Below are positions 979 to 15,365 of a DNA stretch of 64,000 nucleotides, one piece after another. Under the pieces are notes generated by a model. It was not told where the DNA came from. It made no database searches and saw nothing but the letters and a program-made list of their open reading frames with translations. Origin of the DNA: Chryseobacterium sp. LAM-KRS1 (GTDB taxonomy: Bacteria > Bacteroidota > Bacteroidia > Flavobacteriales > Weeksellaceae); assembly GCF_013184525.1 (NCBI RefSeq), contig NZ_JAAOIZ010000003.1, positions 248,001 to 312,000 of the forward strand, in the 5' to 3' direction. Made by a program: the position numbers and the translations under genes. How positions within the stretch are numbered: the first letter of the stretch is position 1; every line of letters starts with the position of its first letter.

Positions 979-986
979 TATCTTTG
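979..986 (+). promoter_or_regulatory. -7 promoter element of the tyrosine leader (TATCTTTG)
   Basis: TAnnTTTG match ending eight bases before the leader-peptide ATG at 995, so the mRNA would start almost at the leader. The nearest TTG for -33 is at 951-953, with a spacing of 25, which is a little long. Confidence 0.5.
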
Positions 987-994
987 CTGTTCAT

Positions 995-1093
995 ATGAAA
1001 TATTTAAACAGCATATTACGTCTTCCTTTCTTTAATGAGTATTACTACCCGATGTACTGTTCGGGAAGACTGTCTATGTGTATAATTCAATAA
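995..1093 (+). CDS. Tyrosine-rich leader peptide of an attenuator (32 codons)
   Basis: A 32-codon frame from ATG 995 to TAA 1091-1093. Five of its codons are tyrosine, including a run of three (codons 16-18, bases 1040-1048) and another at codon 21; the local sequence is PFFNEYYYPMYC. It is followed by a strong intrinsic terminator and then by a tyrosyl-tRNA synthetase-like gene. This is the classical layout of ribosome-mediated attenuation: when charged tRNA-Tyr is scarce the ribosome pauses on the Tyr codons. The peptide itself probably has no other function. The reading frame, codon bias and flanking hairpins are seen directly; the regulatory role is inferred. Confidence 0.7.
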   Translation: MKYLNSILRLPFFNEYYYPMYCSGRLSMCIIQ

Positions 1094-1126
1094 CAAAATA
1101 TTAATTTATTATATAGAGCCCGAACA
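1048..1126 (+). promoter_or_regulatory. Tyr attenuator: pause hairpin and competing antiterminator pairing
   Basis: CCCGA (1048-1052) pairs with TCGGG (1061-1065) to form a pause or protector hairpin directly over the Tyr codons. TGTTCGGG (1058-1065) is also the exact complement of CCCGAACA (1119-1126), the 5' arm of the terminator. The two pairings exclude each other. A ribosome held at 1040-1048 would mask the first arm, free 1058-1065, and let it capture the terminator arm, giving read-through into the tyrS-like gene. Confidence 0.7.
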
Positions 1127-1145
1127 TTATTGTTCGGGCTTTTTT
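1117..1145 (+). terminator. Intrinsic terminator of the Tyr attenuator
   Basis: Perfect 10-bp stem AGCCCGAACA / TGTTCGGGCT (1117-1126 and 1131-1140) with a 4-base loop TTAT and a T-run at 1140-1145. It lies between the leader peptide and the tyrS-like start at 1166. Confidence 0.85.
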
Positions 1146-1165
1146 AATGCAAAATTTTAAAAGAA

Positions 1166-1429
1166 ATGATTCATCTATTACAAGAAAATGTGGAAATTAT
1201 TTTACCACAAAACGGTCTGGAAAACAAATTACAACAGGCTAAAGACGAAAACAGGAAACTAAACATCAAACTGGGATTCGATCCTACTGCTCCGGACCTT
1301 CATCTGGGACACGCTGTTGTTCTAAAAAAACTCAGACAATTTCAGGATCTGGGACACCGGATTATTATTGTTGTCGGAAGTTTTACAGCAAGAATCGGGG
1401 ATCCCAATTGTAAATTAAAAACAGAATAA
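1166..1429 (+). pseudogene. Truncated tyrosyl-tRNA synthetase (N-terminal 87 residues)
   Basis: The 87-residue product matches the N-terminus of the TyrS subgroup with [18 protein letters not shown] (the HIGH motif reads HLGH), followed by [10 protein letters not shown] and FTARIGDP. An intact enzyme has roughly 400 residues. Here the frame ends at 1427-1429, just after the position where a functional protein reads GDPSGRxKTR; this copy reads [10 protein letters not shown]. The rest of the catalytic domain, the KMSKS loop and the anticodon-binding domain are absent from the following sequence in any frame. It cannot charge tRNA by itself. It keeps a full attenuator and promoter upstream, so it may be a recently lost second tyrS whose leader survives. 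A short regulatory protein is a less likely alternative. Confidence 0.75.
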
Positions 1430-1468
1430 AGATCAAAAAACTCTTAATAAATCATCCACATTAGATCT

Positions 1469-2137
1469 TTAAAATAAATTGATATTAATAAAAGCTCCTA
1501 CATTATAATCGTATTTTTTCATTGGCCCATACCAATCTAAATTTACTCCAGTACCAAATGAAAATTCTTTATACCTAAGCCCTAACCTTAGCATGACATA
1601 GCTTCTGTCATGGAGTCCAGAGTTGATGGTAACTGAATGCATACCCTGAAACCTGGTATATAATCGCAATTTATCGGTTATACTTGGTATATATTCTGTC
1701 ATAAGCATCACTTCTGCGTTTGCATTTTTTGATACATCAACGCTGGGAGCCATTATTACAGTGTAATTAGAATCACTCAACGTATAGATAAGTCCTGTTG
1801 ATGTTCTGAGACCATTTACAGATGTATACATAAATCCTCCCGTAATATCAAGTCCTTTTAAAACCGAATATGTAAACTTTCCCTGGGACATGATGCTATC
1901 TGTTCTAGGTTCCCAATTTGTTATTAAGTTTGAAACACTAAAAAATCCGAATCTGGATAAGGAAGAAATTTTTTTTACAACCAGTAATTGATAAAATAGT
2001 CCATTGTAACCAACCAAAGTTTCCATATTTATTGGAGGATTTCCTATTGTCTGTTTTTCCGCATACTGCCCTAAAATAAATGTTTTAGAAAATAGTGTGA
2101 TTAATATTATTAGTAATATTCTGACCTTGAAACTCAT
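1469..2137 (-). CDS. Secreted beta-strand-rich protein, probably outer-membrane beta-barrel
   Basis: 222 residues. An N-terminal signal peptide (hydrophobic stretch LLIILITLF, likely cleaved before QYAEKQ) is followed by alternating hydrophobic/polar strands typical of a small outer-membrane barrel, for example YVMLRLGLRYKEFSFGTGVNL, and an aromatic C-terminal end (FININLF), a common barrel signature. The family is not recognised and no catalytic motif is visible. It is the last of four minus-strand genes that run away from the AraC regulator at 4366, and a role in the same secreted-protein locus is possible. The gap to the next gene upstream is 144 bases, so it may have its own promoter. Confidence 0.55.
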   Translation of the reverse strand: MSFKVRILLIILITLFSKTFILGQYAEKQTIGNPPINMETLVGYNGLFYQLLVVKKISSLSRFGFFSVSNLITNWEPRTDSIMSQGKFTYSVLKGLDITGGFMYTSVNGLRTSTGLIYTLSDSNYTVIMAPSVDVSKNANAEVMLMTEYIPSITDKLRLYTRFQGMHSVTINSGLHDRSYVMLRLGLRYKEFSFGTGVNLDWYGPMKKYDYNVGAFININLF

Positions 2138-2281
2138 TGATGTTTTATTATTTTGTAAAACTTTCTTTGTAATAATAATTTTACTATTGTGATTGTTGTG
2201 TACAAGTATAGCTAAACAGTATTTATTTAATAAAATACAAGCAAAAAGCTATTTAAATGATCTCTTTGCTTGTATTATTTA

Positions 2282-2803
2282 TTATTTAGCTAGCCTACTT
2301 TTTTTTACTACAGCCTCGGCCTGAACTTCAAGTTTAACATCGGGGTGCCATAATTTCACAACCTGAACTGCTGTGGAAGTTGGGGGATTTTGAGTATTTA
2401 CATATTTATCCCGTATTTCTTCAAATTTATTGAGTTCATTAATATCGGTCATATAAACTTTGATTTTAATTACATCATTAAGGGTTCCCCCTTCTTTGGC
2501 CAATGTACTTTTAATATTTTCAAATACAGTCTTAGCTTGTACAGATATATCATCCTTTCCTATGATCTTTCCGGCCCCATCAAGATAACTTGTAGTACCG
2601 GATAAGTCAATTTTCATATAATTATGTGATAAATCATATTTAACATATTCTGCATATCCAGGAGCAGAGGGGCCGTAAGTTAAATTAATGTTCACATCAT
2701 GTTTTCTGGCCATCGTAGAACAGCCCATTGATAAAAGGCTCAGTGATATACTAAAAACAGCGAAAAATATTTTTATTAGTAATGAATTATTGGTAAACTT
2801 CAT
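2282..2803 (-). CDS. RidA/YjgF-family protein with lipoprotein signal
   Basis: 173 residues from the ATG at 2803 (an alternative ATG is at 2827). The N-terminus has a lipobox-like LLSMGC (Cys about residue 28), so the protein should be a lipoprotein; that is unusual, since most RidA proteins are cytosolic. From about residue 90 it follows the RidA fold: QAKTVFENIKSTLAKEGGTL, then VIKIKVYMTDINELNKF, then KLEVQAEAV. Active imine deaminases carry an Arg in the segment PxRxxVxV (Arg105 in E. coli); here the segment reads NPPTSTAVQV, so that Arg is missing and deaminase activity is doubtful. Neighbours are secreted SnoaL-fold proteins, pointing to a shared extracytoplasmic role of unknown substrate. 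Confidence 0.75.
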   Translation of the reverse strand: MKFTNNSLLIKIFFAVFSISLSLLSMGCSTMARKHDVNINLTYGPSAPGYAEYVKYDLSHNYMKIDLSGTTSYLDGAGKIIGKDDISVQAKTVFENIKSTLAKEGGTLNDVIKIKVYMTDINELNKFEEIRDKYVNTQNPPTSTAVQVVKLWHPDVKLEVQAEAVVKKSRLAK

Positions 2804-2969
2804 TGTTATTTTATATTTAATGGTCATTATATCATTAGTACATTTTGTAATTTCTCATTAAAGTATATCACAAAAACATGTTAATCAATTTTCTTTCTTT
2901 TATTTAATTCAGATTCTTATAGTTTAATACCTCTGGGTAAAAAATAATACGAATGAGGCCATTTATAAA

Positions 2970-3614
2970 TCACAGTGCACCGATCTGAGACATAAAGGTA
3001 TAATCATCATAAAACAACCATTCTTCAACCATCCTTCCTCTATCATTCCACCGGCCAATCGTAGCCATCTCAATATTAAACTTCTTTTTTGTAGGCTGTA
3101 TAATCCTACCATTAGCTAATAACATTGGTCTTGTAAACGTTCCTTTCCAAATACCTGTTACCGCAGTATAATATCCTTGTCCAATTCTTACATGATGTAT
3201 AGGATTTTCAGTATCGGGAGCAAATGAAAATATCTTTTTAGATCGTTCAATATGGGCTTTTAAGCCAACAGTTTTTGTTCCATCCGGATAATGTACAATA
3301 ATTCCTTGATCATGACTTCTGCTCATTTCATCCCATTTTTGATGGCTATACACATTGAAATCCAAATCATCAAAATTATCAAGGTTATTTTCTACCATTT
3401 CTCTTTCCTTCCTAAATTCATTTAAATTTTTACCTATATTTTTTTTTGCTGTTTCAGGAGCTGTAGATGAAAAATCATCAGGAATAATTTTATCACCTGT
3501 CTGCTCATATGGAGCTATCCTGTTCAATCTTTTTTTGGGTGTATTATCCTTGCAGGAAATACAAAAAGCGAGGCCCACAGTCAGTAATAGCAGAACGAAA
3601 ATTCTATTTCTCAT
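2970..3614 (-). CDS. SnoaL-like (NTF2-fold) lipoprotein
   Basis: 214 residues. The start has a lipoprotein signal (LTVGLAFCISCKDN, lipidated Cys about residue 21). A charged linker follows, then a domain from about residue 85 that looks like the SnoaL/NTF2 fold: a HIERSKKIFSFAPD segment, IGQGYYTAVTGIWKGTF, and the closing GRMVEEWLFYDDYTFMSQIG, which is a typical SnoaL ester-cyclase ending. The enzymatic substrate cannot be told. It is followed by the RidA-like gene and preceded, 13 bases away, by another NTF2-fold gene, so the pair is probably one transcript. Both are exported, in contrast to polyketide-cyclase members of the fold. Confidence 0.7.
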   Translation of the reverse strand: MRNRIFVLLLLTVGLAFCISCKDNTPKKRLNRIAPYEQTGDKIIPDDFSSTAPETAKKNIGKNLNEFRKEREMVENNLDNFDDLDFNVYSHQKWDEMSRSHDQGIIVHYPDGTKTVGLKAHIERSKKIFSFAPDTENPIHHVRIGQGYYTAVTGIWKGTFTRPMLLANGRIIQPTKKKFNIEMATIGRWNDRGRMVEEWLFYDDYTFMSQIGAL

Positions 3615-3627
3615 TTTCTTGTAAGTA

Positions 3628-4095
3628 TTAATTACCTTTATTGTATAAGGGGTTTATATCCATATAGATAAGTGTATGTGTTATTTTATTACCGTCAAAA
3701 ACAAAAACATCCGTTACAGGAAGTGTAATATTACTGCCATCGTGTCTAGTGTAGGAAACTTCCATTTGAACAACTGTGGAAGTAGAATCTTTCCATATTC
3801 TTAAAATCTTATGTTTTAAGTCTTTTATAGAGTTATAAAAATCTGTCTGAGCTTTAAATATAGCAGATTTCCCTACCTCCTCCGGAAAATTTCCAAATTT
3901 AAAAACAGAGTCCTCAGATAAAAATTCAGCAAACTTATTGGGATCTTTACTATCTATAGCTGATAGTATTTTTTCTATACTAGGCTGTTTTTTTATAACC
4001 GTACTTTTGGAATAAATCATTTCTCGATTTTGTTTTTTCTGTCCAGAAATAATTAAGGACGAAAGACTGATCATAAATACTAATGTATATTTCAT
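3628..4095 (-). CDS. Secreted NTF2/SnoaL-like protein
   Basis: 155 residues. A signal peptide (YTLVFMISLSSLIISG) is followed by a single NTF2-fold domain: IEKILSAIDSKDPNKFAEFL, then EDSVFKFGN, then VQMEVSYTRHDGSNITLPVT and DVFVFDGNKITHTLIYMD. This is the pattern of small limonene-epoxide hydrolase/SnoaL-like proteins. Catalytic identity cannot be assigned. It is the first gene of the minus-strand set and lies 270 bases from the divergent AraC gene, so the shared intergenic region 4096-4365 probably holds both promoters and the regulator's operator, although no clear inverted repeat was found there. Confidence 0.7.
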   Translation of the reverse strand: MKYTLVFMISLSSLIISGQKKQNREMIYSKSTVIKKQPSIEKILSAIDSKDPNKFAEFLSEDSVFKFGNFPEEVGKSAIFKAQTDFYNSIKDLKHKILRIWKDSTSTVVQMEVSYTRHDGSNITLPVTDVFVFDGNKITHTLIYMDINPLYNKGN

Positions 4096-4365
4096 AATGT
4101 AAAAAATGTTGTTATTATTTAGCTACAAATTTATTTTGACATATAAGCATTTATGTGATTAATTTAGAAGTAATAATGACGAATTTTGGATATGGCGTTT
4201 AATAATTACACACCGAGTGCATAGTCAAATACATTATCTTATATTTGGTCAACGAAACAGATCATTTACCTTTCGCACGATTAAAACTGTTTTCTAATTA
4301 AACTTGAAAAGCATAATACATATGCTTTGTGTAGTTTAGAGTATTTATTAAGCTTATTTATTTGT

Positions 4366-5292
4366 ATGGCAATGAGAAATAAGAGTAAAACAATTAAGAG
4401 TAATATTTTTGATTCATTAAAAATATCTAAAGTAAACAACCAAGAGCATATAGAAGATTTCACAATTATCAACTTAAGAGATGCAGGACTTTCTGCTCCC
4501 TATACATCTTATCCTTTCAGGTCCGATGACTTTATATTTATTTTTATAAAAGAAGGCAACGGAAAGATTTACAGAGGAAATTATCTACAGGAAGTACAAC
4601 CACTGTCAGTACATTTTATAAATACATGTCAGCAAATTGAGCTCAGTATGGATAGTTTAGATGACATATATATGATAATTGTAGGAGAATATTTTTTTAA
4701 AAAGTACATCGACAAGGATTTTTATAGAATGTTTACTTTTCTAATCATTGAAAGTGGTATTTCCAAAGAATCTACTCCTGATTTCTTTTCAATGATGGAG
4801 GATACATATATAAAAATTTATAATGAATTTAAGAGAGCAAATAGAAACTATCATGCGATTGGACATCTAGTTGGATTTCTCCTACATAAATTCACAGATG
4901 AGTTCTGGATTGAAAATTCTAATATTCATGAAGAAAAATGTACTTTAGAAATGCTTATTTCTTTTAAAAGACAATTATCCGATAATTTTATTGAACTTAT
5001 TAATGGTAAAACAGAGAAAGTTTTAAAGTTGTCAGATTTTGCGTCAAGTCAGAATATACATCCAAAACACTTCAATACCATTATAAAAAATAAAACCGGT
5101 AAGACAGTTTCAGAATGGATTACTGAAAAATCTATTGATGAAGCTAAAATTCTTTTAAGGGAATCAAACTTATCTATTAAAGAAATTTCAAATCTGTTCG
5201 GCTATTCAGAACCTACTCATTTTTCACACTTTTTTAAGAAAAATACTAAAATGTCCCCAAAGGAATATAGAGAAGGGTCAAAAATGATTTGA
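4366..5292 (+). CDS. AraC-family transcriptional regulator
   Basis: 308 residues from the ATG at 4366; another ATG at 4372 and an upstream ATG at 4327 are possible. The N-terminal part (about 20-160) is a cupin-like sensing domain (PFRSDDFIFIFIKEGNGKIY). The last 100 residues form a double helix-turn-helix AraC domain: LKLSDFASSQNIHPKHFN, then KTGKTVSEWI, then IKEISNLFGYSEPTHFSHFF and KKNTKMSPKEYR. It is transcribed divergently from the exported RidA/SnoaL gene set, the usual arrangement for a local activator. The inducer is unknown. Confidence 0.85.
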   Translation: MAMRNKSKTIKSNIFDSLKISKVNNQEHIEDFTIINLRDAGLSAPYTSYPFRSDDFIFIFIKEGNGKIYRGNYLQEVQPLSVHFINTCQQIELSMDSLDDIYMIIVGEYFFKKYIDKDFYRMFTFLIIESGISKESTPDFFSMMEDTYIKIYNEFKRANRNYHAIGHLVGFLLHKFTDEFWIENSNIHEEKCTLEMLISFKRQLSDNFIELINGKTEKVLKLSDFASSQNIHPKHFNTIIKNKTGKTVSEWITEKSIDEAKILLRESNLSIKEISNLFGYSEPTHFSHFFKKNTKMSPKEYREGSKMI

Positions 5293-5362
5293 AGAATTTT
5301 TTCGAACTTTTTTTAAATCTTAAATTCAATATATTCGTGGTATTGAAAAGGTTGAATATACC

Positions 5363-5800
5363 ATGAACTTTACATTGAAATACAGGAAAGCTGAGGAAAG
5401 CGATATTGAATTCCTGCTCGATCTGAGAACGAAAACGATGACTGAGCATTATGCCACTTCGAATCTTCCAACCACAAAAGAATATGCTCTTCAAAGGATC
5501 CTTTACCAATTTGAAAATGCTCATATCATCATTTTAAATGATAACCCAATGGGATTGTTAAAAATAAACAGAACTGCAGATAATATAGATATTTTACAAC
5601 TTCAGATTCATCCTGACCAACAAGGTCTGGGTATTGGAAAATCTATTTTGGAAAAAATTATCCGTGAATCGGTTTCGGATCAGAAATCAGTTTCCCTTAG
5701 TGTTTTAAAAACTAATCGGGCACAGAAACTTTATTCCAGCTTAGGTTTTAAAATCATCGATGAAGATGATCATTCTTATAATATGAAATTTTTTAATTAA
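5363..5800 (+). CDS. GNAT-family N-acetyltransferase
   Basis: 145 residues. The acetyl-CoA binding signature is clear: LQLQIHPDQQGLGIGKSILE (motif A, Q-x-x-G-x-G, about residues 79-98), then a second part with VLKTNRAQKLYSSLGFKII (motif B). The N-terminus YRKAEESDIEFLLDLRTKTM is typical of single-domain GNATs. The acceptor substrate is not predictable. It stands alone between an AraC gene and the convergent TerD genes, sharing a terminator with the latter. Confidence 0.85.
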   Translation: MNFTLKYRKAEESDIEFLLDLRTKTMTEHYATSNLPTTKEYALQRILYQFENAHIIILNDNPMGLLKINRTADNIDILQLQIHPDQQGLGIGKSILEKIIRESVSDQKSVSLSVLKTNRAQKLYSSLGFKIIDEDDHSYNMKFFN

Positions 5801-5830
5801 AAAAAGTATGCTCTTCAGCATACTTTTTAT
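5801..5830. terminator. Bidirectional terminator between GNAT and terD-like gene
   Basis: AAAAAGTATGC (5801-5811) pairs with GCATACTTTTT around the loop TCTTCA; runs of A and T on both sides let it work in both directions. It overlaps the last codon of the minus-strand TerD gene. Confidence 0.8.
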
Positions 5831-6495
5831 TTATACGTATAAGGCACCAGAACATCTATAAAATTATCCGTACTGTAAGGATCTCCTATTGCCCTGAATT
5901 TCCAGTCTCCATGATGGCGATATGCTTCAGCAAAAACCATCGAGCACATGCCATTCATACTGCTATCTCCGGAAAGACTATATTTTGTAATTTCTTTTCC
6001 TCTTGCATCAACCGCTCTGATAAAAGCATTATCAATCATTCCGAAATGCTGTCTGTTGGTCCTTCCCTGATATATAGACACTACAAAAATTATCTTTTGA
6101 TAACGTTCGTTTAATTGATCCAGCTTCACTATAATCTGTTCATCATCTCCATCGCCTTCCCCTGTTCTATTATCACCCGTCAACCAGATGTGACCTGAAG
6201 GATGACGCATCGAATTAAAGTAAATAACATCACTTTCATAAAGCACAACCTGTTTTCCATTATGCCCATGAAGAGTTCTTCCCATATCAGCAACTTTCCC
6301 ATTTTTATCCAGAAGAAAAGCAACAGCATCGAGGTCATATTCGGGTTCATTGCTGAATAACCTCCCAAAGAAACCTCCCTGCTTGCGAACGTCCCAACCC
6401 AATCCGATAGTGACCTGAGAAAGATCATAAACGCTTTCACCAAGATTGTTTTTCCTCAGATCTATGGTTTGGCCTTTTTGTAAATTAATTGCCAT
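5827..6495 (-). CDS. TerD-family protein (tellurite/stress, calcium-binding type)
   Basis: 222 residues. It opens INLQKGQTIDLRK, the conserved TerD start, then LGWDVRKQGG, then DLDAVAFLLDKNGKV and the acidic loop GDNRTGEGDGDDEQIIVKLD, which carries the Asp-rich calcium-binding positions of the family, and ends in a GDWKFRAIGDPYS-like segment. TerD proteins are cytosolic or membrane-associated and take part in tellurite resistance and general envelope/DNA stress responses. It lies two bases downstream of a second TerD gene, a tandem duplication. No other ter genes (terB, terC, terZ) are in the window. Confidence 0.88.
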   Translation of the reverse strand: MAINLQKGQTIDLRKNNLGESVYDLSQVTIGLGWDVRKQGGFFGRLFSNEPEYDLDAVAFLLDKNGKVADMGRTLHGHNGKQVVLYESDVIYFNSMRHPSGHIWLTGDNRTGEGDGDDEQIIVKLDQLNERYQKIIFVVSIYQGRTNRQHFGMIDNAFIRAVDARGKEITKYSLSGDSSMNGMCSMVFAEAYRHHGDWKFRAIGDPYSTDNFIDVLVPYTYK

Positions 6496-6497
6496 TG

Positions 6498-7073
6498 TTA
6501 TTTAATGATTTGCCCTTTATAATATTTTTCAAGGAAGAAAGAAAGGTCTGCCCTGTAACCAATTCCGGAAGCCTCAAATTTCCAGCTTCCATTCCTCTTG
6601 TATAACCTGCCGAACTCGATTCCCGTTTCTATAGAAAAATCCTCATCCAGTTCATATTTGGCGATTTCCTGGTTGCTATTATTATCAATAATCCTGATAT
6701 ATGAATTTCTTACCTGACCAAAATTTTGTTTTCTTCTTTCAAAATCTTCAATGGTAACCACAAAGAGTATTTCTTCTACTCTTCCATCAACTTTTTCCAA
6801 ATCGATAATAATAGATTCATCATCATCCCCGTCACTGTTCTTTCCACTCGGATCATCACCCGTATGAGTCAATGCGCCATCCGGAGAGCTTAGATTGTTA
6901 TAAAAAACAAAATAATCTTCACTTACAAGTTTTCTTTCTGCATCGATCATAATTGCAGAAGCATCGAGATCAAAATCATATCCTCTTCCATCGTTAGGAT
7001 CCCATCCCAATCCAATCGTTAGTTTTGTTAATCCTATATCTATTCTTTGTCCTTTCTGTAGGTTAATTGCCAT
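6498..7073 (-). CDS. TerD-family protein (tellurite/stress, calcium-binding type)
   Basis: 191 residues, the length of classical TerD/TerE. Start INLQKGQRIDI; LTIGLGWDPNDGRGYDFDLDA; acidic loop TGDDPSGKNSDGDDDESIII; ending GSWKFEASGIGYRADL. All calcium-ligand positions look present. It is the upstream member of a two-gene operon with the larger TerD-like gene, and shares its first ten residues (MAINLQKGQ). The downstream copy is longer in the middle, so the two have probably diverged in function. Confidence 0.9.
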   Translation of the reverse strand: MAINLQKGQRIDIGLTKLTIGLGWDPNDGRGYDFDLDASAIMIDAERKLVSEDYFVFYNNLSSPDGALTHTGDDPSGKNSDGDDDESIIIDLEKVDGRVEEILFVVTIEDFERRKQNFGQVRNSYIRIIDNNSNQEIAKYELDEDFSIETGIEFGRLYKRNGSWKFEASGIGYRADLSFFLEKYYKGQIIK

Positions 7074-7134
7074 AATAAAATCTTAAATATCTAAGATAAA
7101 TTTGATTTCCCGAATATCCAAATATTTTAATAGA

Positions 7135-7160
7135 AAAAGCCCGATCTAATTGACCGGGCT
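7135..7160 (-). terminator. Terminator after the YbhN-like gene
   Basis: On the minus strand AGCCCGG...CGGGCT is followed by TTTTTC. It lies between the flippase-like gene (ends 7184) and the TerD pair. Confidence 0.7.
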
Positions 7161-7183
7161 GTATTGTATATCAGAATGGATAT

Positions 7184-8212
7184 TTAACTTTCAAAATTAT
7201 TGTGACTGACTCTGCTATTTCTTGCTTTCGCCAGCATTGGAATAGAAATCAATCCCATAACCAACATAATTACAATTTGCAGAGGTAAGGAAATAAAAGA
7301 ATAGGTAAGTCCCATTTCACCTCCTAATTCCGCACTTTTTCCCATGGATATAAATAATGCCATAAATCCGAATTTCATAGCCAGGTTGAAGGCTCCGATA
7401 CCTCCACTGGCAGGAATGATCATTCCCAATGTTCCTACTACAATAATAAAGAAACCGTCAGCAATGGTGAAGTTTGAAGTTTCCGGAAGTGCAAAACATA
7501 CAAGATAGGCTGCAAAATAATAGGATATCCAGATTCCCAGCGTATACAAAATAAACTTTCCTTTCTGTTTCAGCCTGAAAATCGAAGTGATCCCCTGGAA
7601 GATTCCATCTATAAAGCCAATAATCTTTCCTAAAAGAGGAATTGTTGCAAGCTTCTTTTTGAGAACAAAAAAAAGTATTGTTCCTACTGCAAGAATTAAA
7701 AGAACGATTAAAATTTTATTTGGGTTGATATCTATTCCTGAGTTTTCGTAAAAAGAAAGAATGGCCTTGTATTTAAAGATTAAGGTTAATCCCAAGAATC
7801 CCAACATACAAATAAGATCCACTACTCTTTCCAAAATAATCGTTCCAAAAGATTTATCTACCGGAACTCCTTCCACTCCATACAATGCCGTAGCCCTTGC
7901 TACTTCTCCACTTCTGGGAATGGTAAGATTCATCAGGTAGCCAAATGAAATAGACCACAATGAATTGGAGTTAGAGATCTGATGCCCCATTGGCTCTAAT
8001 AAAAGATTCCAGCGAACAGCCCGAAACCAGTAAGCTAAAATCCCAAAAACAGAAGCAAATAAAACCCACAGGTAGTTTGCTTTTGCCAATGATTTCTGAA
8101 TCACCTTAAAATCAAGTCCCTTTAAAGCAAGCCATAAAAAAAAGCCTGCAAAAGCAAGCGAAATTACGACTGTAATTATTGACTTTATGGGATTCGTTTG
8201 TTTTTTCTCCAT
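7184..8212 (-). CDS. YbhN/UPF0104-type membrane protein (LPG-synthase TM-like flippase domain)
   Basis: 342 residues with about eight hydrophobic segments. Family signatures are WFRAVRWNLLLEPMG (about 62-76), GYLMNLTIPRSGEVARATAL (about 91-110) and a glycine-rich IIPASGGIGAFNLAMKFG late in the protein. This is the transmembrane domain found in lysylphosphatidylglycerol synthases (MprF), here without the catalytic C-terminal domain, as in YbhN/AglD-type proteins. It probably sits in the inner membrane and moves or helps handle a lipid. It starts three bases after the end of panD, so the two are co-transcribed. Confidence 0.8.
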   Translation of the reverse strand: MEKKQTNPIKSIITVVISLAFAGFFLWLALKGLDFKVIQKSLAKANYLWVLFASVFGILAYWFRAVRWNLLLEPMGHQISNSNSLWSISFGYLMNLTIPRSGEVARATALYGVEGVPVDKSFGTIILERVVDLICMLGFLGLTLIFKYKAILSFYENSGIDINPNKILIVLLILAVGTILFFVLKKKLATIPLLGKIIGFIDGIFQGITSIFRLKQKGKFILYTLGIWISYYFAAYLVCFALPETSNFTIADGFFIIVVGTLGMIIPASGGIGAFNLAMKFGFMALFISMGKSAELGGEMGLTYSFISLPLQIVIMLVMGLISIPMLAKARNSRVSHNNFES

Positions 8213-8215
8213 GAA

Positions 8216-8566
8216 TCAGGTAAGAAGGTTTGTCTTTTCATCCGGGAAAACGATCTTTGGCTGGAAACTTTTTGCCTCCTCCGGCGTCATTTGTGCATAA
8301 GCTATAATAATGATGATATCATCCTTCTGAACTTTTCTTGCAGCAGGCCCGTTTAAGCATACCTCTCCGGATTTTCTCTTACCTTTTATAATGTATGTAT
8401 CGAAACGCTCTCCATTGTTTACGTTTACGATATAAACTCTCTCACCTACCACCAATCCGGCAGCTTCGATAAGATCTTCGTCAATCGTTATACTCCCGAT
8501 ATAATTAAGGTCTGAGGCAGTAACCCGTACCCTGTGAATCTTTGACTTGAAAACTTCTATTAACAT
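8216..8566 (-). CDS. panD: Aspartate 1-decarboxylase
   Basis: 116 residues, full length for PanD. It decarboxylates L-aspartate to beta-alanine for pantothenate and coenzyme A synthesis. It carries the self-cleavage site Gly24-Ser25 in [11 protein letters not shown]; Ser25 becomes the pyruvoyl cofactor. Other hallmarks are [15 protein letters not shown] and [20 protein letters not shown]. It heads a two-gene unit with the YbhN-like gene. A -7 element lies only four bases before its ATG, suggesting a leaderless mRNA. The C-terminal tail is hydrophilic and variable, as in relatives. Confidence 0.96.
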
Positions 8567-8570
8567 GCTG

Positions 8571-8578
8571 CAAATTTA
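8571..8578 (-). promoter_or_regulatory. panD -7 promoter element, four bases from ATG
   Basis: Minus-strand TAAATTTG, then CAGC, then ATG (8566). With the usual distance from this element to the start of transcription, the mRNA would begin at or next to the A of the start codon. Confidence 0.55.
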
Positions 8579-8899
8579 TTAATAAAAATTTATAAATTGA
8601 AGTTTATAACCATTTTAAAAGCATCAGATACACAGGTATTTATTTTTTTTTAAATTAAAATATTTGGATTTTACTTACTAAATCTACAATCATATCACCA
8701 AATACATTAATACTTAATACAAATTCAAGATTTAATAAATACAAAAAATAATATTCCGATTTAGCTAAAGTCAATACACATAAGCATTTGGCATGATTTT
8801 AGTAACGGGTAACGTAGATTTTTGGTGAAAAACCGAATTATGATATTTTGATGTTTTTTCGCCAAAATCAAAAAAATAACACAAAATTTAATAAAAAAA
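8579..8899. other. AT-rich intergenic region between panD and the HU gene
   Basis: No protein or RNA gene is seen here. The stretch is very AT-rich with A/T tracts (for example 8639-8656), of the sort that bends DNA. It contains one notable structure, the imperfect inverted repeat at 8817-8869 listed separately. Confidence 0.5.
8817..8869. repeat. Imperfect inverted repeat upstream of the HU gene
   Basis: GATTTT-TGG-TGAAAAAC (8817-8833) faces GTTTTTTCGCCAAAATC (8853-8869) around a 19-base AT-rich centre. The arms match apart from one unpaired T and one G-T pair. It sits about 30 bases upstream of the HU -33 element, so it may be a regulatory palindrome. It lacks a T-run, so it is not a plain terminator. 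Confidence 0.45.
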
Positions 8900-8929
8900 T
8901 TGCACAATTAGAAAATAGTATTATATTTG
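8900..8929 (+). promoter_or_regulatory. Promoter of the HU gene
   Basis: TTG at 8900-8902 and TATATTTG at 8922-8929, separated by 19 bases, fit the Bacteroidota -33/-7 consensus well. It is 34 bases upstream of the HU start codon. Confidence 0.75.
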
Positions 8930-8963
8930 CTATAATTACGAACCAACTTTAATATTAAAAATT

Positions 8964-9254
8964 ATGAACAAGTCTGAATTAATCGACGCAATCGCAAAAG
9001 ATGCAGGAATTACAAAAGTTGCAGCAAAGTCTGCTCTTGAATCTTTTATTTCTAACGTAACTACTACTTTAAAGAAAAAAGACGGAAAAGTTTCTTTAGT
9101 AGGATTCGGTACTTTCTCAGTAGCTGAGAGAGCTGCTAGACAAGGTATCAACCCTGCAACTAAAAAACCAATCAAAATTGCTGCTAAAAAAGTTGCTAAA
9201 TTCAAAGCTGGAGCTGATCTATCTACAGCAGTTTCTGGAGCTAAGAAAAAATAA
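8964..9254 (+). CDS. HU-family nucleoid-associated DNA-binding protein
   Basis: 96 residues. The classic HU/IHF fold reads MNKSELIDAIAKDAGITK (helix 1), GFGTFSVAERAARQGINPAT (beta arm, with the conserved GFGxF and RxGxNPxT) and KKVAKFKAGADL at the end. It binds and bends DNA non-specifically as a dimer and organises the nucleoid. The Lys/Ala-rich tail extends slightly past the usual 90 residues. It is a single gene with its own strong promoter and its own terminator, with codons typical of a highly expressed gene. Confidence 0.95.
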   Translation: MNKSELIDAIAKDAGITKVAAKSALESFISNVTTTLKKKDGKVSLVGFGTFSVAERAARQGINPATKKPIKIAAKKVAKFKAGADLSTAVSGAKKK

Positions 9255-9274
9255 TCATTCAGATTAGAAAATGC

Positions 9275-9302
9275 AAACCTCATCTTTTGATGAGGTTTTT
9301 TT
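9275..9302 (+). terminator. Terminator of the HU gene
   Basis: AAACCTCATC and GATGAGGTTT form the stem, followed by a T-run, 20 bases after the HU stop codon. Confidence 0.85.
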
Positions 9303-9327
9303 ATGTTTATTCAGTTTGATAAAGGGA

Positions 9328-9969
9328 TTAAGGCGCTAAACGGGAAATTTTCCAGTCGAGACCTTCAAGCTGATAGATAATCCTGTCATGTAATCTATTG
9401 GGTCTACCCTGCCAGAATTCTATCTCATAAGGTTTTGCGATATAGCCACCCCAATTCTCGGGTCTTGGAACTTCATCCGTTTCATATTGCTTCTCCAGCT
9501 CTTTTAATTTCTCTTCCAGAAACTCCCTGTTGGGAATAATCTGGCTTTGAGGCGACACTACTGCACCCAGCTGGCTGCCTTTTGGTCTGGAATGAAAATA
9601 GCCATCACTCAGATTCTCCGCTACCCGTTCCAAATTGGCTTTTATGATGATCTGCCTTTCAAGTGTTGGCCAGAAAAAATGGAGACAGGCCTTATGATTT
9701 TTTTCAATTGCCTTTCCTTTCTTGCTTGAATAATTGGTGTAAAAAATAAACCCTTCATACGTATATGCCTTTAAAAGAACCATTCTCGTCCTTGGGCATC
9801 CATCTTCCTCTACAGTTGATATAGCCATTGCATTTGCTTCGGAAACATCTGGATTCTCTGACGCTGTAAGAAACCAATCCCTGAATTGCTCAATCGGATT
9901 TTGTTTTATCTCACTTTCAATAAGTTGGGATTTCTCATAGATTTTTCTCTTATCGTGAAGGTTTTCCAT
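9328..9969 (-). CDS. pdxH: Pyridoxamine 5'-phosphate oxidase
   Basis: 213 residues, the family's usual length. It oxidises pyridoxine or pyridoxamine 5'-phosphate to pyridoxal 5'-phosphate with FMN and oxygen. Diagnostic segments are PNAMAISTVxxDGxPRTRMVLLK-like (here EANAMAISTVEEDGCPRTR), GFIFYTNYSSKKGKAIEKN, the PRPENWGGY motif, and EFWQGRPNRLHDRI near the end, which binds the substrate phosphate. The C-terminus WKISRLAP is the family's typical W..xRLAP. It is divergent from yqgE with 24 bases between start codons. Confidence 0.96.
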   Translation of the reverse strand: MENLHDKRKIYEKSQLIESEIKQNPIEQFRDWFLTASENPDVSEANAMAISTVEEDGCPRTRMVLLKAYTYEGFIFYTNYSSKKGKAIEKNHKACLHFFWPTLERQIIIKANLERVAENLSDGYFHSRPKGSQLGAVVSPQSQIIPNREFLEEKLKELEKQYETDEVPRPENWGGYIAKPYEIEFWQGRPNRLHDRIIYQLEGLDWKISRLAP

Positions 9970-9982
9970 AAATATTTTTTAT

Positions 9983-9990
9983 TAAATTTG
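9983..9990 (+). promoter_or_regulatory. -7-like element directly before yqgE
   Basis: TAAATTTG ends three bases before the ATG at 9994, within the 24-base gap shared with pdxH. If used, the mRNA would be leaderless. No -33 TTG is visible. Confidence 0.35.
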
Positions 9991-9993
9991 AGT

Positions 9994-10542
9994 ATGCATT
10001 ACTCATACAAAGGTAAAATATTAATTTCCACACCTGATATTTCCGGAGATATTTTTTCCAGATCAGTAGTCCTTATCGTAGAACACAACGAAAGCGGCGC
10101 ATTTGGTTTAATATTAAATAAGAAAAACAATCAGGTGAGTGGCAAGTTCAAGAACTTCTTTGATTTTAAAATCGATGTGTACGATGGTGGACCGGTGGAA
10201 AATGATAAGATATTCTTTATTGTAAAAGGCAAGAAAGTAACGGAACTATATACTGATATTGCTGATGGATTTTATCTGACAGAGGATATTGAAAACATCA
10301 TTAGCTCCGTTTTAAGTGGAGACCTCCTTATAGATGATGTCAAGATCTTTTCCGGATATTCAGGATGGACAGCCAATCAGCTGGATAGTGAGGTTCAAAG
10401 AAAAATGTGGACTGTAGTCGATATCTATAATCTGGACTATACATTACCCAATGACCAGACCTTATGGAAAACTATCATGCAAAATCTGGGTGGTGAATAT
10501 CTACTCTGGGCTAATTCCCCGGAAGATATTTCATTGAATTAA
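9994..10542 (+). CDS. YqgE/AlgH family protein
   Basis: 182 residues from the ATG at 9994; earlier in-frame codons lie inside pdxH and lack homology. The family signature is plain: GKILISTPDISGDIFSRSVV, then VEHNESGAFGLILNK, the GGPVENDKIFFI segment, and FSGYSGWTANQLDSE followed by WTV. The function of YqgE/AlgH proteins is still unclear, although the name comes from a link with alginate regulation in Pseudomonas. It is a single cytosolic domain of normal length. It is followed by an intergenic region with a possible small ORF. Confidence 0.92.
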   Translation: MHYSYKGKILISTPDISGDIFSRSVVLIVEHNESGAFGLILNKKNNQVSGKFKNFFDFKIDVYDGGPVENDKIFFIVKGKKVTELYTDIADGFYLTEDIENIISSVLSGDLLIDDVKIFSGYSGWTANQLDSEVQRKMWTVVDIYNLDYTLPNDQTLWKTIMQNLGGEYLLWANSPEDISLN

Positions 10543-10651
10543 TTCTACTTATATTGGGAATTAGAGAGAAAATATTAACAAATTTTAAGCTTGCTTTAAC
10601 CAATTTTTAAGAAAGAATTTCCGTTATTTGAATAACCAAAAAGTCGTGAAA

Positions 10652-10741
10652 ATGAAAATCTTAAAACAACTCATTTTATTTTTCTTTCCGGAAGTATTTT
10701 TAACTCTTAAGCCTATTAAGGTGAAGCGAGGCAATAAATAA
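10652..10741 (+). CDS. Possible small ORF with Phe run (29 codons)
   Basis: ATG 10652 to TAA 10739-10741, encoding a short hydrophobic then basic peptide containing LFFFPEVFLTLKP and ending KRGNK. It lies in a 327-base stretch without other genes (10543-10869). The three successive Phe codons followed by Pro recall the Tyr-Tyr-Tyr-Pro of the leader at 995, and a long hairpin follows at 10819-10862. There is however no gene downstream on this strand and no clear competing pairing. It could be an orphan leader peptide, a small membrane peptide, or chance. Confidence 0.3.
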   Translation: MKILKQLILFFFPEVFLTLKPIKVKRGNK

Positions 10742-10818
10742 AAATAATATTGTAAATAAGTCTGCCAGATACATCTCAGCAGGTTTAAAAAAATACAATT
10801 TCTGATATATTCAGAATA

Positions 10819-10862
10819 AAACCCGGTAAAGGACTTTGGAACTTTTGTTGTTTACCGGGTTT
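10819..10862 (-). terminator. Long-stem terminator after the class IV aminotransferase gene
   Basis: A perfect 12-bp stem, AAACCCGGTAAA (10819-10830) with TTTACCGGGTTT (10851-10862), and a 20-base loop. Read on the minus strand it follows the stop at 10870 and ends in TTTT. It could also stop plus-strand transcripts from the small ORF at 10652. Confidence 0.65.
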
Positions 10863-10869
10863 GTCAATT

Positions 10870-11679
10870 TTAAAAACTTTCCTTCCATTTTTCCACCAAT
10901 TCGGTGAATCGGGAATTTCCAAAAGTCTTATTTCTTATCTTTCCTACAGAAAATATGCCTTTCTCATCTGAAATCATTAAAATTTCTTCAGCTTTCTGAG
11001 ATTCAAATGCAATAATTTCATGCTCCTGAATATCAGCAAGATTATTCTTATGTAAAAAAGTAACAAAATTTTCCAGTAAAGGAGAAATGTATGCACCTTC
11101 GGAATGTTTTGGAACTTTAATGATATTTCCTTCTAAAAACAGAAGGTTTCCAGAAGTAGATCTCGCAATCCTCTTATTCGGATTAAGCAGAATCACATCA
11201 TCCAGATCGTTTTCCTGAGCATAAATCCCTCCATAGATGTTTTCCGGACAATGAACCCTGATATTACTCAAAAGATTATTATTTACATTAATTTCTTTGA
11301 TAAGATCAAGCTCAAGAAGCCTTTGATGAATGGCCAGAATATCATCCTTTTCATCGACTTCATAAAAATAGGAAATTGATGATTTTGCTAAAGTAAGTTC
11401 ATCTGAATTTCTGAAAACCTGAAAATTAATAATCGCATTTTTACTATTCTTTCCTTCAATCACCTCTTTTTGAAAAAGAGTTTGAAAAAATTCAAGAGTA
11501 TAAGTCAAAGGAATATTCATTCTCATTTTTCTCATTGAGGCCATTAGGAAGAAATAACACTCTTCGTCCATAATGAGCTTAGAGTTCCTAATAAAAAAAG
11601 AAACCTTTACAGCATCTCCCAGGAGAAATGCCCTGTTCTTCACATTCAATTCGTCTGATGTAAAATATTGATTTTCCAA
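10870..11679 (-). CDS. Class IV (branched-chain/ADC-lyase type) aminotransferase homologue, probably lacking the PLP lysine
   Basis: 269 residues with the overall plan of fold-type IV PLP enzymes (PabC, Dat, BCAT): an N-terminal NVKNRAFLLGDAVKVSFFIR (the usual RxFxxGDGxFE position), and the C-terminal DLDDVILLNPNKRIARSTSGNLLFLEGNIIKVP, which lines up with the ADEALLLD..GxVxExSxxNxF segment. In active enzymes a Lys lies about 19 residues before this segment; here that stretch reads LLSNIRVHCPENIYGGIYAQ, with no lysine. A true lyase/transaminase role is therefore doubtful. It is next to a START-like gene on the same strand. Confidence 0.7.
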   Translation of the reverse strand: MENQYFTSDELNVKNRAFLLGDAVKVSFFIRNSKLIMDEECYFFLMASMRKMRMNIPLTYTLEFFQTLFQKEVIEGKNSKNAIINFQVFRNSDELTLAKSSISYFYEVDEKDDILAIHQRLLELDLIKEINVNNNLLSNIRVHCPENIYGGIYAQENDLDDVILLNPNKRIARSTSGNLLFLEGNIIKVPKHSEGAYISPLLENFVTFLHKNNLADIQEHEIIAFESQKAEEILMISDEKGIFSVGKIRNKTFGNSRFTELVEKWKESF

Positions 11680-11752
11680 TGTATGATTTATTTATAAAAA
11701 AATAATGAACGATAAATCGTTCATCAGTTTTATCATTTTGTACAGCCCACTA

Positions 11753-12139
11753 TTAAGCAGCCCCTAGTTTTATTCTTAGATTTTCTATAAGATTCTCCCA
11801 ATACATCGCATTTTCTTCTTCATCTCCTTCTTCACAAAAATCTGTGATATTTAAAGCCAAATCTTCAGTAATATCATCAATCGTGATGGTCATTTCAAAG
11901 AAATTCTTTGTTCCCTCATCTTCTTCCCATCTGAAACGCACGAAACCTTCTGGCTTATATCTAATCAAAGTCGCCTTTTCAGCAGGGCCTCCACCCCAGC
12001 TAAAAAAGAAGTCATCTCCTTTCTCTACTACCTCATCCGCAAACCATTCAGATAATCCTTCTGCCGTCGCCAGATACTCATATAAAATCTCTGAAAGACA
12101 ATGCATTGGAAATTCGTAATGGACTTTAAGTTTCGCCAT
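11753..12139 (-). CDS. START-like/AHSA1-type domain protein
   Basis: 128 residues. The helix-grip fold is suggested by KVHYEFPMHCLSEILYEYLATAEGLSEWFADEVV (start), FFFSWGGGPAEKATLIRYKPEGFVRFRWEED (central sheet), and a long C-terminal helix MYWENLIENLRIKLGA. The conserved W at LSEWFAD and the RFRWE strand are typical of SRPBCC proteins that bind small hydrophobic ligands or chaperones. It is conserved across flavobacteria by memory, with no known function. It is rich in acidic residues. Confidence 0.8.
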   Translation of the reverse strand: MAKLKVHYEFPMHCLSEILYEYLATAEGLSEWFADEVVEKGDDFFFSWGGGPAEKATLIRYKPEGFVRFRWEEDEGTKNFFEMTITIDDITEDLALNITDFCEEGDEEENAMYWENLIENLRIKLGAA

Positions 12140-12298
12140 ATAATCTTTGTTTTATCGTCCCGCAATATATAAATTAATTTTTTTATTACACAAAAATGTA
12201 TTTACTTTTTTATACAATATGCATGATATTTGTCACAGTTGTTCTGACACTATCGTGAAGGATTTTAAAAGCAAAATTTACAGTGCTTGGCATAAAAA

Positions 12299-12323
12299 AA
12301 TCTCTTCTTTGAAAGAAGAGATT
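12299..12323 (-). terminator. Terminator after the class III aminotransferase gene
   Basis: AATCTCTTCTTT and AAAGAAGAGATT form the stem; on the minus strand a run of seven T follows, just after the stop codon at 12329. Confidence 0.85.
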
Positions 12324-12328
12324 GATAT

Positions 12329-13510
12329 CTAATTTTCGTTTAAAACTTCAAGGATAATCTGGCATCCCTCTTTTATTTCCTCAAGAGATATGGTTAACGG
12401 TGGAGAAATTCTTAAATATTCATTCCTGTACAGTTGCCAGAACACTACAAGACCTTTTTCCATACACTTCTGAGCAACTTTTAAAGTATATTCCGGGCTT
12501 CCTAAATTTACAGCGAGCATCAACCCTCTCCCGTTTATATTACTGATCTTGGGATGCACCAGTAATTCTCTGAATAGTTCCTCTTTCCTGTCCACCTCAT
12601 TCATTAGCCCACTTTCCAGTATTTCTTTTAATGTTGCATAGCTGGATGCCGCTATAAGAGGATTCCCTCCGAATGTGGTGATATGTCCCAACTTCGGCGA
12701 ATGTGACAAACTATTCATTATTTCCTTAGAGCTCATAAAAGCCCCAACAGGGACTCCACCTCCCATTCCTTTCCCCATAACAAGGATATCCGGAACAATT
12801 CCATAATGCTCAAATGAAAACAGCTTACCTGTCCTTCCAAACCCCGGTTGTATCTCATCCAGGATAAGGAGAGCCCCCACCTCCTCACATCTTTTTTTTA
12901 ATTTCTTCAGATAATCGTTCTGAGGAACTAAAAATCCTGCCGCACCCTGTATCGTTTCAAGGATTACACAGGCTGTCTTCTCTGTAATCTTATCCAGATC
13001 ATCTTCATTATTGAATTCAATAAATGATACCATCGGTAAAAGAGGACGAAATTCCCTCTTATGATACTCATTTCCCGAAACACTTAATGCTCCATGGGTA
13101 TTTCCATGATAAGAATCTTTAAAGGAAATAATTTCTTCCCTTCCGGTATATCTTTTGGCCAGCTTCAGACTTCCATCTATAGCTTCAGCTCCACTATTGA
13201 CAAGATAAGTTACTTCCAGCGGATCCGGAGTAGCTTCTGCCAACAAACGACATAATGCCACAGGTTTATCCTGCGCATATTCACCATATACCATTACATG
13301 AAGGTACTTTTCCGCCTGTTCTTTGATTGCATTAACGATTTTAGGATGGGAATGTCCCAAAGTATTGGCAGAAACTCCTGCTACAAAATCAAGATATCTC
13401 TTTCCGTCCGTTCCAAAAATATAGCTTCCTTCTGCTTTTTCAACTTCAAAACCTGCTGCAAATTGTGTAGTTTGTGCCTGGTATGAAAAAAAATCTTTTT
13501 GCAATTCCAT
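12329..13510 (-). CDS. Class III aminotransferase (acetylornithine/ornithine/aspartate aminotransferase family)
   Basis: 393 residues from the ATG at 13510 (an upstream ATG at 13543 lacks homology). PLP-dependent fold type I: YLDFVAGVSANTLGHSHPKI near the N-terminus, NSGAEAIDGSLKLAKRYTGR (phosphate and substrate site), ILDEIQPGFGRTGKLFSFEH with the PLP-contacting Asp, and PDILVMGKGMGGGVPVGAFM carrying the Schiff-base Lys. This family moves the terminal amino group of ornithine, acetylornithine or similar diamines. The exact substrate cannot be decided from sequence alone, and no arg genes are adjacent. It is a monocistronic unit with its own terminator. Confidence 0.88.
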   Translation of the reverse strand: MELQKDFFSYQAQTTQFAAGFEVEKAEGSYIFGTDGKRYLDFVAGVSANTLGHSHPKIVNAIKEQAEKYLHVMVYGEYAQDKPVALCRLLAEATPDPLEVTYLVNSGAEAIDGSLKLAKRYTGREEIISFKDSYHGNTHGALSVSGNEYHKREFRPLLPMVSFIEFNNEDDLDKITEKTACVILETIQGAAGFLVPQNDYLKKLKKRCEEVGALLILDEIQPGFGRTGKLFSFEHYGIVPDILVMGKGMGGGVPVGAFMSSKEIMNSLSHSPKLGHITTFGGNPLIAASSYATLKEILESGLMNEVDRKEELFRELLVHPKISNINGRGLMLAVNLGSPEYTLKVAQKCMEKGLVVFWQLYRNEYLRISPPLTISLEEIKEGCQIILEVLNEN

Positions 13511-13571
13511 TTTAAATAAAATTTTAGCAAAGCTAAAAAACATTCATTAAATCCCGAAATTATCATTACAC

Positions 13572-13606
13572 AAAAAAAGCCTGCTTTTTGGCAGGCCTTT
13601 TATTTT
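13572..13606. terminator. Bidirectional terminator after the OstA-like gene
   Basis: AAAGCCTGC and GCAGGCCTTT flank a TTTTTG loop, with T-runs on both sides. It serves the minus-strand OstA-like gene ending at 13617. Confidence 0.85.
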
Positions 13607-13616
13607 TTACAGAAAC

Positions 13617-15362: not shown

Positions 15363-15365
15363 TGA

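Follow-up and report, generated by a model that had tools for sequence, protein, structure and literature searches.

Leader-peptide attenuators control trp, his, thr, leu, pheA and pheST in Proteobacteria, and in TnaC, SpeFL and ErmCL it is an arrest peptide that regulates the downstream gene in cis. The tyrZ gene of Bacillus subtilis and a tyrS-like gene of Enterococcus durans are under T-box control. An auxiliary tryptophanyl-tRNA synthetase (TrpRS) gene in Actinobacteria is reportedly subject to ribosome-mediated transcription attenuation. Sections of PMC1262725 present classical attenuators for trp, trpS and leuS in Actinobacteria, cite T-boxes for tyrosine and place most synthetase genes of Firmicutes under T-box control. 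Second synthetases, among them the B. subtilis TyrZ with its high selectivity for L-Tyr and an indolmycin-resistant TrpRS, are treated in a part of PMC9437257, and the tyrS-like gene of the E. durans tyramine cluster is reported to be induced when tyrosine is absent (PMC3315439). In the open-licence literature we found no description of a tyrosine attenuator, in Bacteroidota or elsewhere, nor of the conserved leader peptide MK-LNSILRLPFFS-YY reported here, which does not establish absence from print; the sections of PMC3766115, PMC4833913 and PMC4787780 examined make no mention of a tyrosine attenuator.

Judged from comparative sequence analysis, flavobacteria and their relatives appear to switch on a spare tyrosyl-tRNA synthetase (TyrRS) through a leader in which two Tyr codons serve as the sensor. 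The window, a stretch of 64,000 nucleotides, corresponds to contig C3:248001-312000 of a 4.6-Mb Chryseobacterium genome. The first-pass annotation had described a 32-codon leader ORF with five Tyr codons, and this ORF is confirmed at 995-1093; its translation is MKYLNSILRLPFFNEYYYPMYCSGRLSMCIIQ (32 codons), with Tyr at codons 3, 16, 17, 18 and 21. The region 979-1165 folds better than 200 of 200 shuffled versions (z -4.7). Five Tyr among 31 leader codons have a probability of about 0.007 if a Tyr frequency of 4% is assumed; the conservation in relatives described below is stronger evidence against chance than this P value. The features are listed in Table 1.

Table 1 Coordinates of the features of the leader and of its downstream gene in the window.
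Feature	Position	Strand	Basis
-7 promoter box TAnnTTTG, Bacteroidota-type, TATCTTTG	979-986	+	ends 8 nt 5' of the leader start codon
Leader peptide ORF, 32 codons	995-1093	+	ORF list; frame-specific purifying selection on codons 2-17 in relatives
Conserved nascent-peptide segment, codons 2-17, K-x-L-N-S-I-L-R-L-P-F-F-S/N-x-Y-Y	998-1045	+	pN/pS
Segment 1, strand of candidate protector hairpin, pairs with 1064-1070	1020-1026	+	covariation, moderate support
Sensor, tandem Tyr codons 16-17 (TAT TAC)	1040-1045	+	Tyr16 at 146/146 and Tyr17 at 145/146 loci
Segment 2, antiterminator strand 1058-1065, overlapping 1064-1070 (pairs with 1020-1026)	1058-1070	+	covariation
Inner stem, 5' strand, partner about 1110-1117, compatible with both states	1073-1080	+	predicted in both stalled-transcript folds
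Segment 3, terminator 5' arm; 1119-1126 also partner of 1058-1065	1117-1126	+	covariation
Segment 4, terminator 3' arm 1131-1140 and T-run 1140-1145	1131-1145	+	pairing and covariation
Remnant (87 codons) of tyrZ, an accessory tyrosyl-tRNA synthetase gene; collinearity with the intact gene ends at about 1404	1166-1429	+	TIGR00234
3.9-kb segment replacing 942 bp of tyrZ relative to G104	1405-5296		blastn vs L240

The gene behind the leader had been read as a truncated tyrS. It is a truncated TyrRS gene, not the housekeeping tyrS, however, but an accessory second one, for which we use our own label tyrZ (NCBIfam gives tyrS only). Residues 5-84 of the remnant match tyrS TIGR00234 of NCBIfam with 92.8 bits, below the whole-protein cut-off of 113.8. 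The housekeeping TyrRS of the same genome is complete (431 aa, L001), and no Tyr leader was found upstream of its gene. An intact tyrZ orthologue of 399 aa is present in G104, a genome of the same species (L005), with which positions 1-1404 and 5297-15378 of the window are collinear (blastn vs L240). Since tyrZ of G104 is intact and the flanks are collinear, the truncation belongs to this strain and the attenuator to the genus. The window strain thus carries an intact leader and a truncated tyrZ; the gene is broken in this strain, and the attenuator therefore now precedes a gene fragment. The proteins encoded in the replacing segment are two of SnoaL-like type, one RidA-like (L-PSP), one of 222 aa without a match and an AraC-type regulator. 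The solved structures nearest to TyrZ are 6bqy, 6byq and 1h3e.

When 320 genomes of the family were searched at the DNA level, 145 gave a match, about 110 with E <1e-10 and nearly all in the same genus. We examined 150 loci (L004-L057, L114-L209), of which 141 encode tyrZ, and the leader stands before the gene at 141/141 (one of them cut). The leader was called by a simple rule at 134 of these loci, by eye at five and at one further locus cut by a contig end (GTG starts or divergent peptide), and at one locus with a differing gene motif. The remaining nine loci are L056 and eight weak DNA matches without tyrZ; L056, from a Phycisphaerales bin and 62% identical, is a homologue without such a leader in its visible upstream bases. 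Within the genus, tyrZ is found in 118/173 genomes and leader plus tyrZ in 117/173, including the window's own genome with its truncated copy and one genome whose tyrZ lies on contig-end pieces; in the 118th (G170) tyrZ is cut by a contig end. In the other 55/173 genomes, the 27-29% identical TyrS is the only one present. Four genomes combine three PF00579 matches with the lack of a leader, namely G043, G089 and G103, which are without tyrZ, and G170, whose tyrZ runs off the contig end; in 52 further genomes, including G027, the 27-29% identical protein is the sole TyrS.

Outside the genus the distribution of tyrZ is patchy, and among 395 genomes of the phylum only two gave more than 400 bits, both from this genus. 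Named carriers are Gelidibacter, Tenacibaculum, Fluviicola, Taibaiella, Sphingobacterium, Rufibacter and Edaphocola, which fall into the orders Flavobacteriales, Sphingobacteriales, Chitinophagales and Cytophagales (placement checked for four of the seven genera). No such leader was found before 27 homologues of 44-49% identity; in three of these a small ORF contains Tyr codons that are spaced, and in none are they tandem. Among 57 more distant homologues (L056, L058-L113), inspected over 330 bases upstream (181 in L056), 48 have no closed small ORF with tandem Tyr codons; the other nine have one, and the ILRLPFF motif was seen by eye in none of them. A relic was recognised in L262 (G027:C1:540341-540495, minus strand; MKTLNNILLLTFSPYYYRV...), where the leader has decayed, its terminator is broken and its motif is lost, in a genome without tyrZ; by its sequence this is a fossil of gene loss. 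The idea of a widespread module before other genes found no support when 395 genomes of the order were searched with model R1 under strict filters, a search from whose matches the known carriers in other genera are absent: strong matches occurred only in the genus, and the 14 weak ones examined were ordinary terminators or chance, except for the relic L262. As to spread by plasmids, the 13 plasmid records that match TyrZ at E <= 1e-40 are all below 60% identity. Comparison of the ORFs of three named loci revealed no shared gene neighbourhood. At one locus (L053 4336-6090, Sphingobacterium sp. GVS05A) tyrZ adjoins a gene for a biopterin-dependent aromatic amino acid hydroxylase, possibly a tyrosine-making enzyme.

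From these comparisons the unit is real, and it is conserved in Chryseobacterium, with a patchy occurrence across four Bacteroidota orders. The sequence is AT-rich and terminators are common in these genomes, which is what an ordinary small ORF before an ordinary terminator would require; conservation across four orders, covariation and frame-specific selection refute such a coincidence, to which we assign a negligible probability.

Retention of the Tyr codons in relatives had been named beforehand as decisive for the attenuator reading, and both codons of the sensor are kept (Table 1). These codon counts refer to 146 leaders, from which L052 (cut) and L054 (divergent) are excluded and in which some genomes are duplicated across two collections; 132 sequences are unique. 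The three Tyr codons in a row that had been emphasised are present in the window, but as a conserved feature the row does not hold: codons 16-17 are conserved, and the third Tyr occurs in 28/100 tree rows and changes at least 11 times on the tyrZ tree. At the base level, codon 16 (1040-1042) is TAT in 146/146 loci, and codon 17 is TAC in 74, TAT in 71 and GAT in one; among 50 leader pairs, synonymous changes number 0 at codon 16 vs 11 at codon 17 (Fisher p 0.0005), a base-level constraint on codon 16. L190 (G049) is the sole leader of the 146 with Asp at codon 17, and tyrZ downstream of it is intact. The distance from Tyr17 to the core of segment 2 is narrowly fixed, being 13 nt in 124 loci, 12 nt in 12, 15 nt in nine and 16 nt in one, and it is 12-13 nt also in the divergent Rufibacter leader (L054). 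A ribosome with Tyr17 in its A site has its front edge about 10 nt beyond the codon. With a footprint of this size, a ribosome stalled at the Tyr codons would leave segment 2 just free.

The terminator that had been noted behind the leader, a perfect 10-bp stem (AGCCCGAACA 1117-1126 / TGTTCGGGCT 1131-1140) with the loop 1127-1130 and T at 1140-1145, was found as described (-17.3 kcal/mol when folded alone), and it is conserved and covaries in relatives. Equally, the proposed complementarity of the leader segment to the 5' arm is exact (TGTTCGGG 1058-1065, CCCGAACA 1119-1126), and the recommended search for compensatory changes showed that this pairing covaries. Pairing and covariation were assessed in an alignment (A1) of 33 leaders chosen from about 140, with 500 shuffles as control. 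The terminator stem is paired in 95.6% of the cells and has a covariation of 0.295 vs 0.159 in shuffles (0/500). For the antiterminator 1058-1065/1119-1126, 89.8% of the cells are paired vs 85.4 in shuffles, and its covariation of 0.234 vs 0.149 was reached in 0/500 shuffles and exceeds that of every slid version; on two measures it is not clear of the shuffles (double-change pairs 185/500, pair types 33/500). The covarying forms are GUUCGG:CCGAAC, GCUCGG:CCGAGC and GCCCGG:CCGGGC. The tyrZ tree is a quick tree, without mixture model, of 100/145 proteins (<93% position-by-position identity, >=350 aa; the truncated copy of the window excluded), and pair and folding counts were made on 99 of its 100 rows, one being dropped as the pattern missed its terminator arm. 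On this tree the two variable pairs of the antiterminator change at least 4 and at least 7 times, respectively. The pairs are kept in 99/99 scored rows (UA 85, CG 13, UG 1; UG 70, UA 27, CG 2) under a pattern that, at the two variable pairs, restricted segment 2 to C/T and segment 3 to A/G and could thus detect only C-A mismatches. On the tree, segment 2 switches its reading frame at least 5 times yet stays paired, so that it is conserved as RNA and not as peptide.

The partner first suggested for segment 2 within the leader fared less well. CCCGA at 1048-1052 can pair with TCGGG at 1061-1065, but this hairpin is not conserved: pairing in relatives (72.7%) equals that of the shuffles (72.7%) and covariation is absent, for which reason it was rejected as the protector. 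With moderate support, the helix 1020-1026/1064-1070 (1:2 helix) is the better candidate for the protector hairpin; it is paired in 81.1% of the cells vs 78.6 in shuffles, with a covariation of 0.188 vs 0.143 (1/500; 33 leaders), and a version slid by +3 scores equally or slightly better on two of five measures.

Folding predictions were made for the 99 tree rows. When the transcript is released from 10 nt beyond Tyr17 onwards and stops at segment 3, 99/99 rows form the antiterminator; in the ribosome-free transcript before synthesis of segment 4, 48/99 do so. The 1:2 pairing in the ribosome-free transcript is predicted with a median probability of 0.24, and with at least 0.5 in 38/99 rows. 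Once segment 4 is present the terminator dominates in 99/99 stalled and 97/99 free transcripts; in the stalled ones it is favoured at equilibrium by a median of 8.4 kcal/mol (range 1.4-12.7), and for the window the values are -17.6 kcal/mol for the extended antiterminator vs -24.7 kcal/mol for the best terminator-containing fold. As the terminator wins at equilibrium even in the stalled transcript, antitermination would have to be kinetic, and since the antiterminator forms in 48/99 rows without a ribosome and the 1:2 competitor is weak, the off state would arise mainly from ribosome movement. In these folding models a kinetic decision and a weak protector are evidence against a textbook copy of trp.

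A Tyr-codon leader ORF before a TyrRS gene, an intrinsic terminator, a covarying and mutually exclusive antiterminator and a fitting spacing, which are among the features by which an attenuator is recognised, were found. Accordant with the first-pass annotation, whose reading as ribosome-mediated attenuation is supported with the switching itself being putative, we consider it highly probable that the leader is a ribosome-mediated transcription attenuator that controls the accessory tyrZ, with a nascent chain that probably tunes the stall. The mRNA would start a few bases upstream of the leader AUG. With Tyr-tRNA in short supply, the ribosome would stall at the tandem Tyr codons 16-17 with its front edge just short of segment 2; segment 2 (1058-1065) could then pair with segment 3 (1119-1126), the terminator would not form and tyrZ would be transcribed. 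When Tyr-tRNA is plentiful, the ribosome would cover segment 2, or segment 2 would fold onto 1020-1026, the terminator (1117-1140) would form and transcription would presumably end near 1145.

The identity of the downstream gene, a tyrosyl-tRNA synthetase, also suits a T-box or another RNA that binds tRNA or a metabolite directly, T-boxes being the rule for the synthetase genes of Firmicutes (PMC1262725, in part). We regard this as very improbable and rejected a T-box or other known Rfam family: none of 30 Rfam-type matches up to E = 10 in 900-1500 is to a T-box covariance model, five relatives gave no Rfam match at gathering score, and the conserved region is a translated ORF. The best matches in 900-1500 are sub-threshold and include the His, Thr and Leu operon leaders.

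An exact TAnnTTTG box, which we take to be the consensus of the Bacteroidota -7 promoter box, stands 4-9 nt upstream of the start codon in 68/132 unique leaders (shuffle mean 0.79), and an exact or relaxed box is present in 117/132. If this consensus applies, the 5' end of the leader mRNA lies probably at the AUG or a few bases before it. Directly 5' of the -7 box, about 20/132 leaders have a palindrome such as CAGGAAATTCCTG, placed 12-17 nt before the leader start in L128, L154, L155, L160, L167, L178, L179 and others; it was not seen in the window. Possibly this palindrome is an operator for a second layer of control.

What had been overlooked is the conservation of the leader peptide itself. 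Fifty leader pairs were taken along the joins of the tyrZ tree by a simple rule, and in these, 148 synonymous changes stand against 57 amino-acid changes over codons 2-17, i.e. a pN/pS of 0.085 in frame, compared with 1.10 and 2.36 for the same region in frames +1 and +2. On the same grounds we rejected an overlapping ORF that had been spotted by eye in another frame, starting at 1035; the conserved frame is that of 995. The ratio is 0.088 for codons 2-8 and 12-15, which lie outside the 1:2 helix, 0.052 for codons 7-13 (ILRLPFF) and 0.011 for the two Tyr codons; tyrZ itself gives 0.132 (37 equal-length pairs). It rises to 0.82 for codons 18-21 and to 1.14 for codons 18-28 in same-frame pairs. 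In codons 2-15 the 193 differences are distributed as 35, 24 and 134 of 700 over the three codon positions, and in codons 18-21 of same-frame pairs as 33, 34 and 34 of 184. Given the low in-frame ratio over codons 2-17 and its relaxation thereafter, the leader is translated and its amino acids are selected up to Tyr17, not beyond.

The end of selection after the second Tyr suggests that the nascent peptide helps the stall. Constraint up to Tyr17 would be expected if the peptide is of importance during the halt of the ribosome at this point, and is not expected from codons and RNA alone, nor from a released peptide product; classical attenuator leaders are not known to have such peptide conservation. 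The conserved nascent chain ...ILRLPFFSxYY would then probably strengthen or tune the stall. An arrest peptide is recognised by a sequence conserved up to its stall site, and here conservation does extend to codons 16/17, the putative stall site. We entertain, with about even confidence, a composite sensor in which the arrest-like peptide MKxLNSILRLPFFSxYY in the exit tunnel would lengthen the wait for Tyr-tRNA at two codons; on a near-leaderless Bacteroidota mRNA, two codons and a peptide would do together what classical attenuators do with runs of codons. This proposal draws on the end of selection at Tyr17 and on the Rufibacter leader L054, which lacks the conserved peptide motif and has several more Tyr codons upstream (Tyr at 9, 11, 14, 17 and 18), as if extra Tyr codons replaced the peptide, in this one case.

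The Rufibacter leader can also be claimed for purely classical attenuation by Tyr codons and RNA helices, with the peptide conserved for another reason, such as initiation on a near-leaderless mRNA or pacing of early elongation: it does without the motif, codons, helices and spacing suffice, and the start codon follows the promoter box by 4-9 nt in most leaders. We consider this somewhat doubtful, since amino acids and not bases are selected, as is evident from the six Leu spellings that are all used at each of codons 4 and 10 and from the share of third positions among the differences, and since selection extends to Tyr17 and ends there, which initiation effects do not predict. Conservation that ends at a fixed residue would also be in agreement with an arrest peptide of the TnaC/SpeFL type that senses a ligand, so that a small molecule, perhaps tyrosine, an analogue or a TyrRS inhibitor, would stall the ribosome regardless of Tyr-tRNA; an accessory synthetase that is patchy outside the genus, as resistance genes often are, would suit this as well. 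However, the final conserved residues are encoded by tandem Tyr codons before a TyrRS gene, for which charging is the better fit, and Rufibacter keeps the Tyr codons without the peptide, and ligand sensing thus appears improbable to us.

The literature examined says little about how aminoacyl-tRNA synthetases are controlled in Bacteroidota, and the tyrZ leader is a well-supported amino-acid attenuator candidate in this phylum, tied to an accessory TyrRS; elsewhere, genes of this type stand in for, or shield, an enzyme that has been poisoned. The leader may serve as a natural reporter of Tyr-tRNA supply and of the coupling between transcription and translation in Bacteroidota; a composite sensor, if true, would imply such coupling. 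The nascent peptide is the more surprising part of the tyrosine attenuator, and should it contribute to the stall, a single leader would unite codon-based attenuation with an arrest peptide.

The closest working analogue, as far as the analogy carries, is the attenuator of the auxiliary TrpRS gene, in which an accessory synthetase beside a housekeeping one is likewise placed under ribosome-mediated attenuation, for Trp and in Actinobacteria instead of for Tyr and in Bacteroidota. With the leader attenuators of Proteobacteria and Actinobacteria, tyrZ shares an ORF with regulatory codons, a terminator, a mutually exclusive antiterminator and possibly a 1:2 hairpin. It differs from them in the amino acid and the phylum, in a start codon that presumably lies almost at the end of the mRNA, in amino-acid selection on the whole N-terminal peptide and in the weakness of the 1:2 helix. 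B. subtilis TyrZ and the tyrS-like gene of E. durans are, like tyrZ, second TyrRS or TyrRS-like genes, and the latter has a tyrosine-dependent expression as predicted for tyrZ, whereas both are T-box genes. TnaC, SpeFL and ErmCL, like the tyrZ leader, are conserved up to a fixed residue, which in them marks the stall site; in the tyrZ leader, where stalling is putative, the fixed residues are instead those of tandem codons for the very amino acid of the regulated enzyme.
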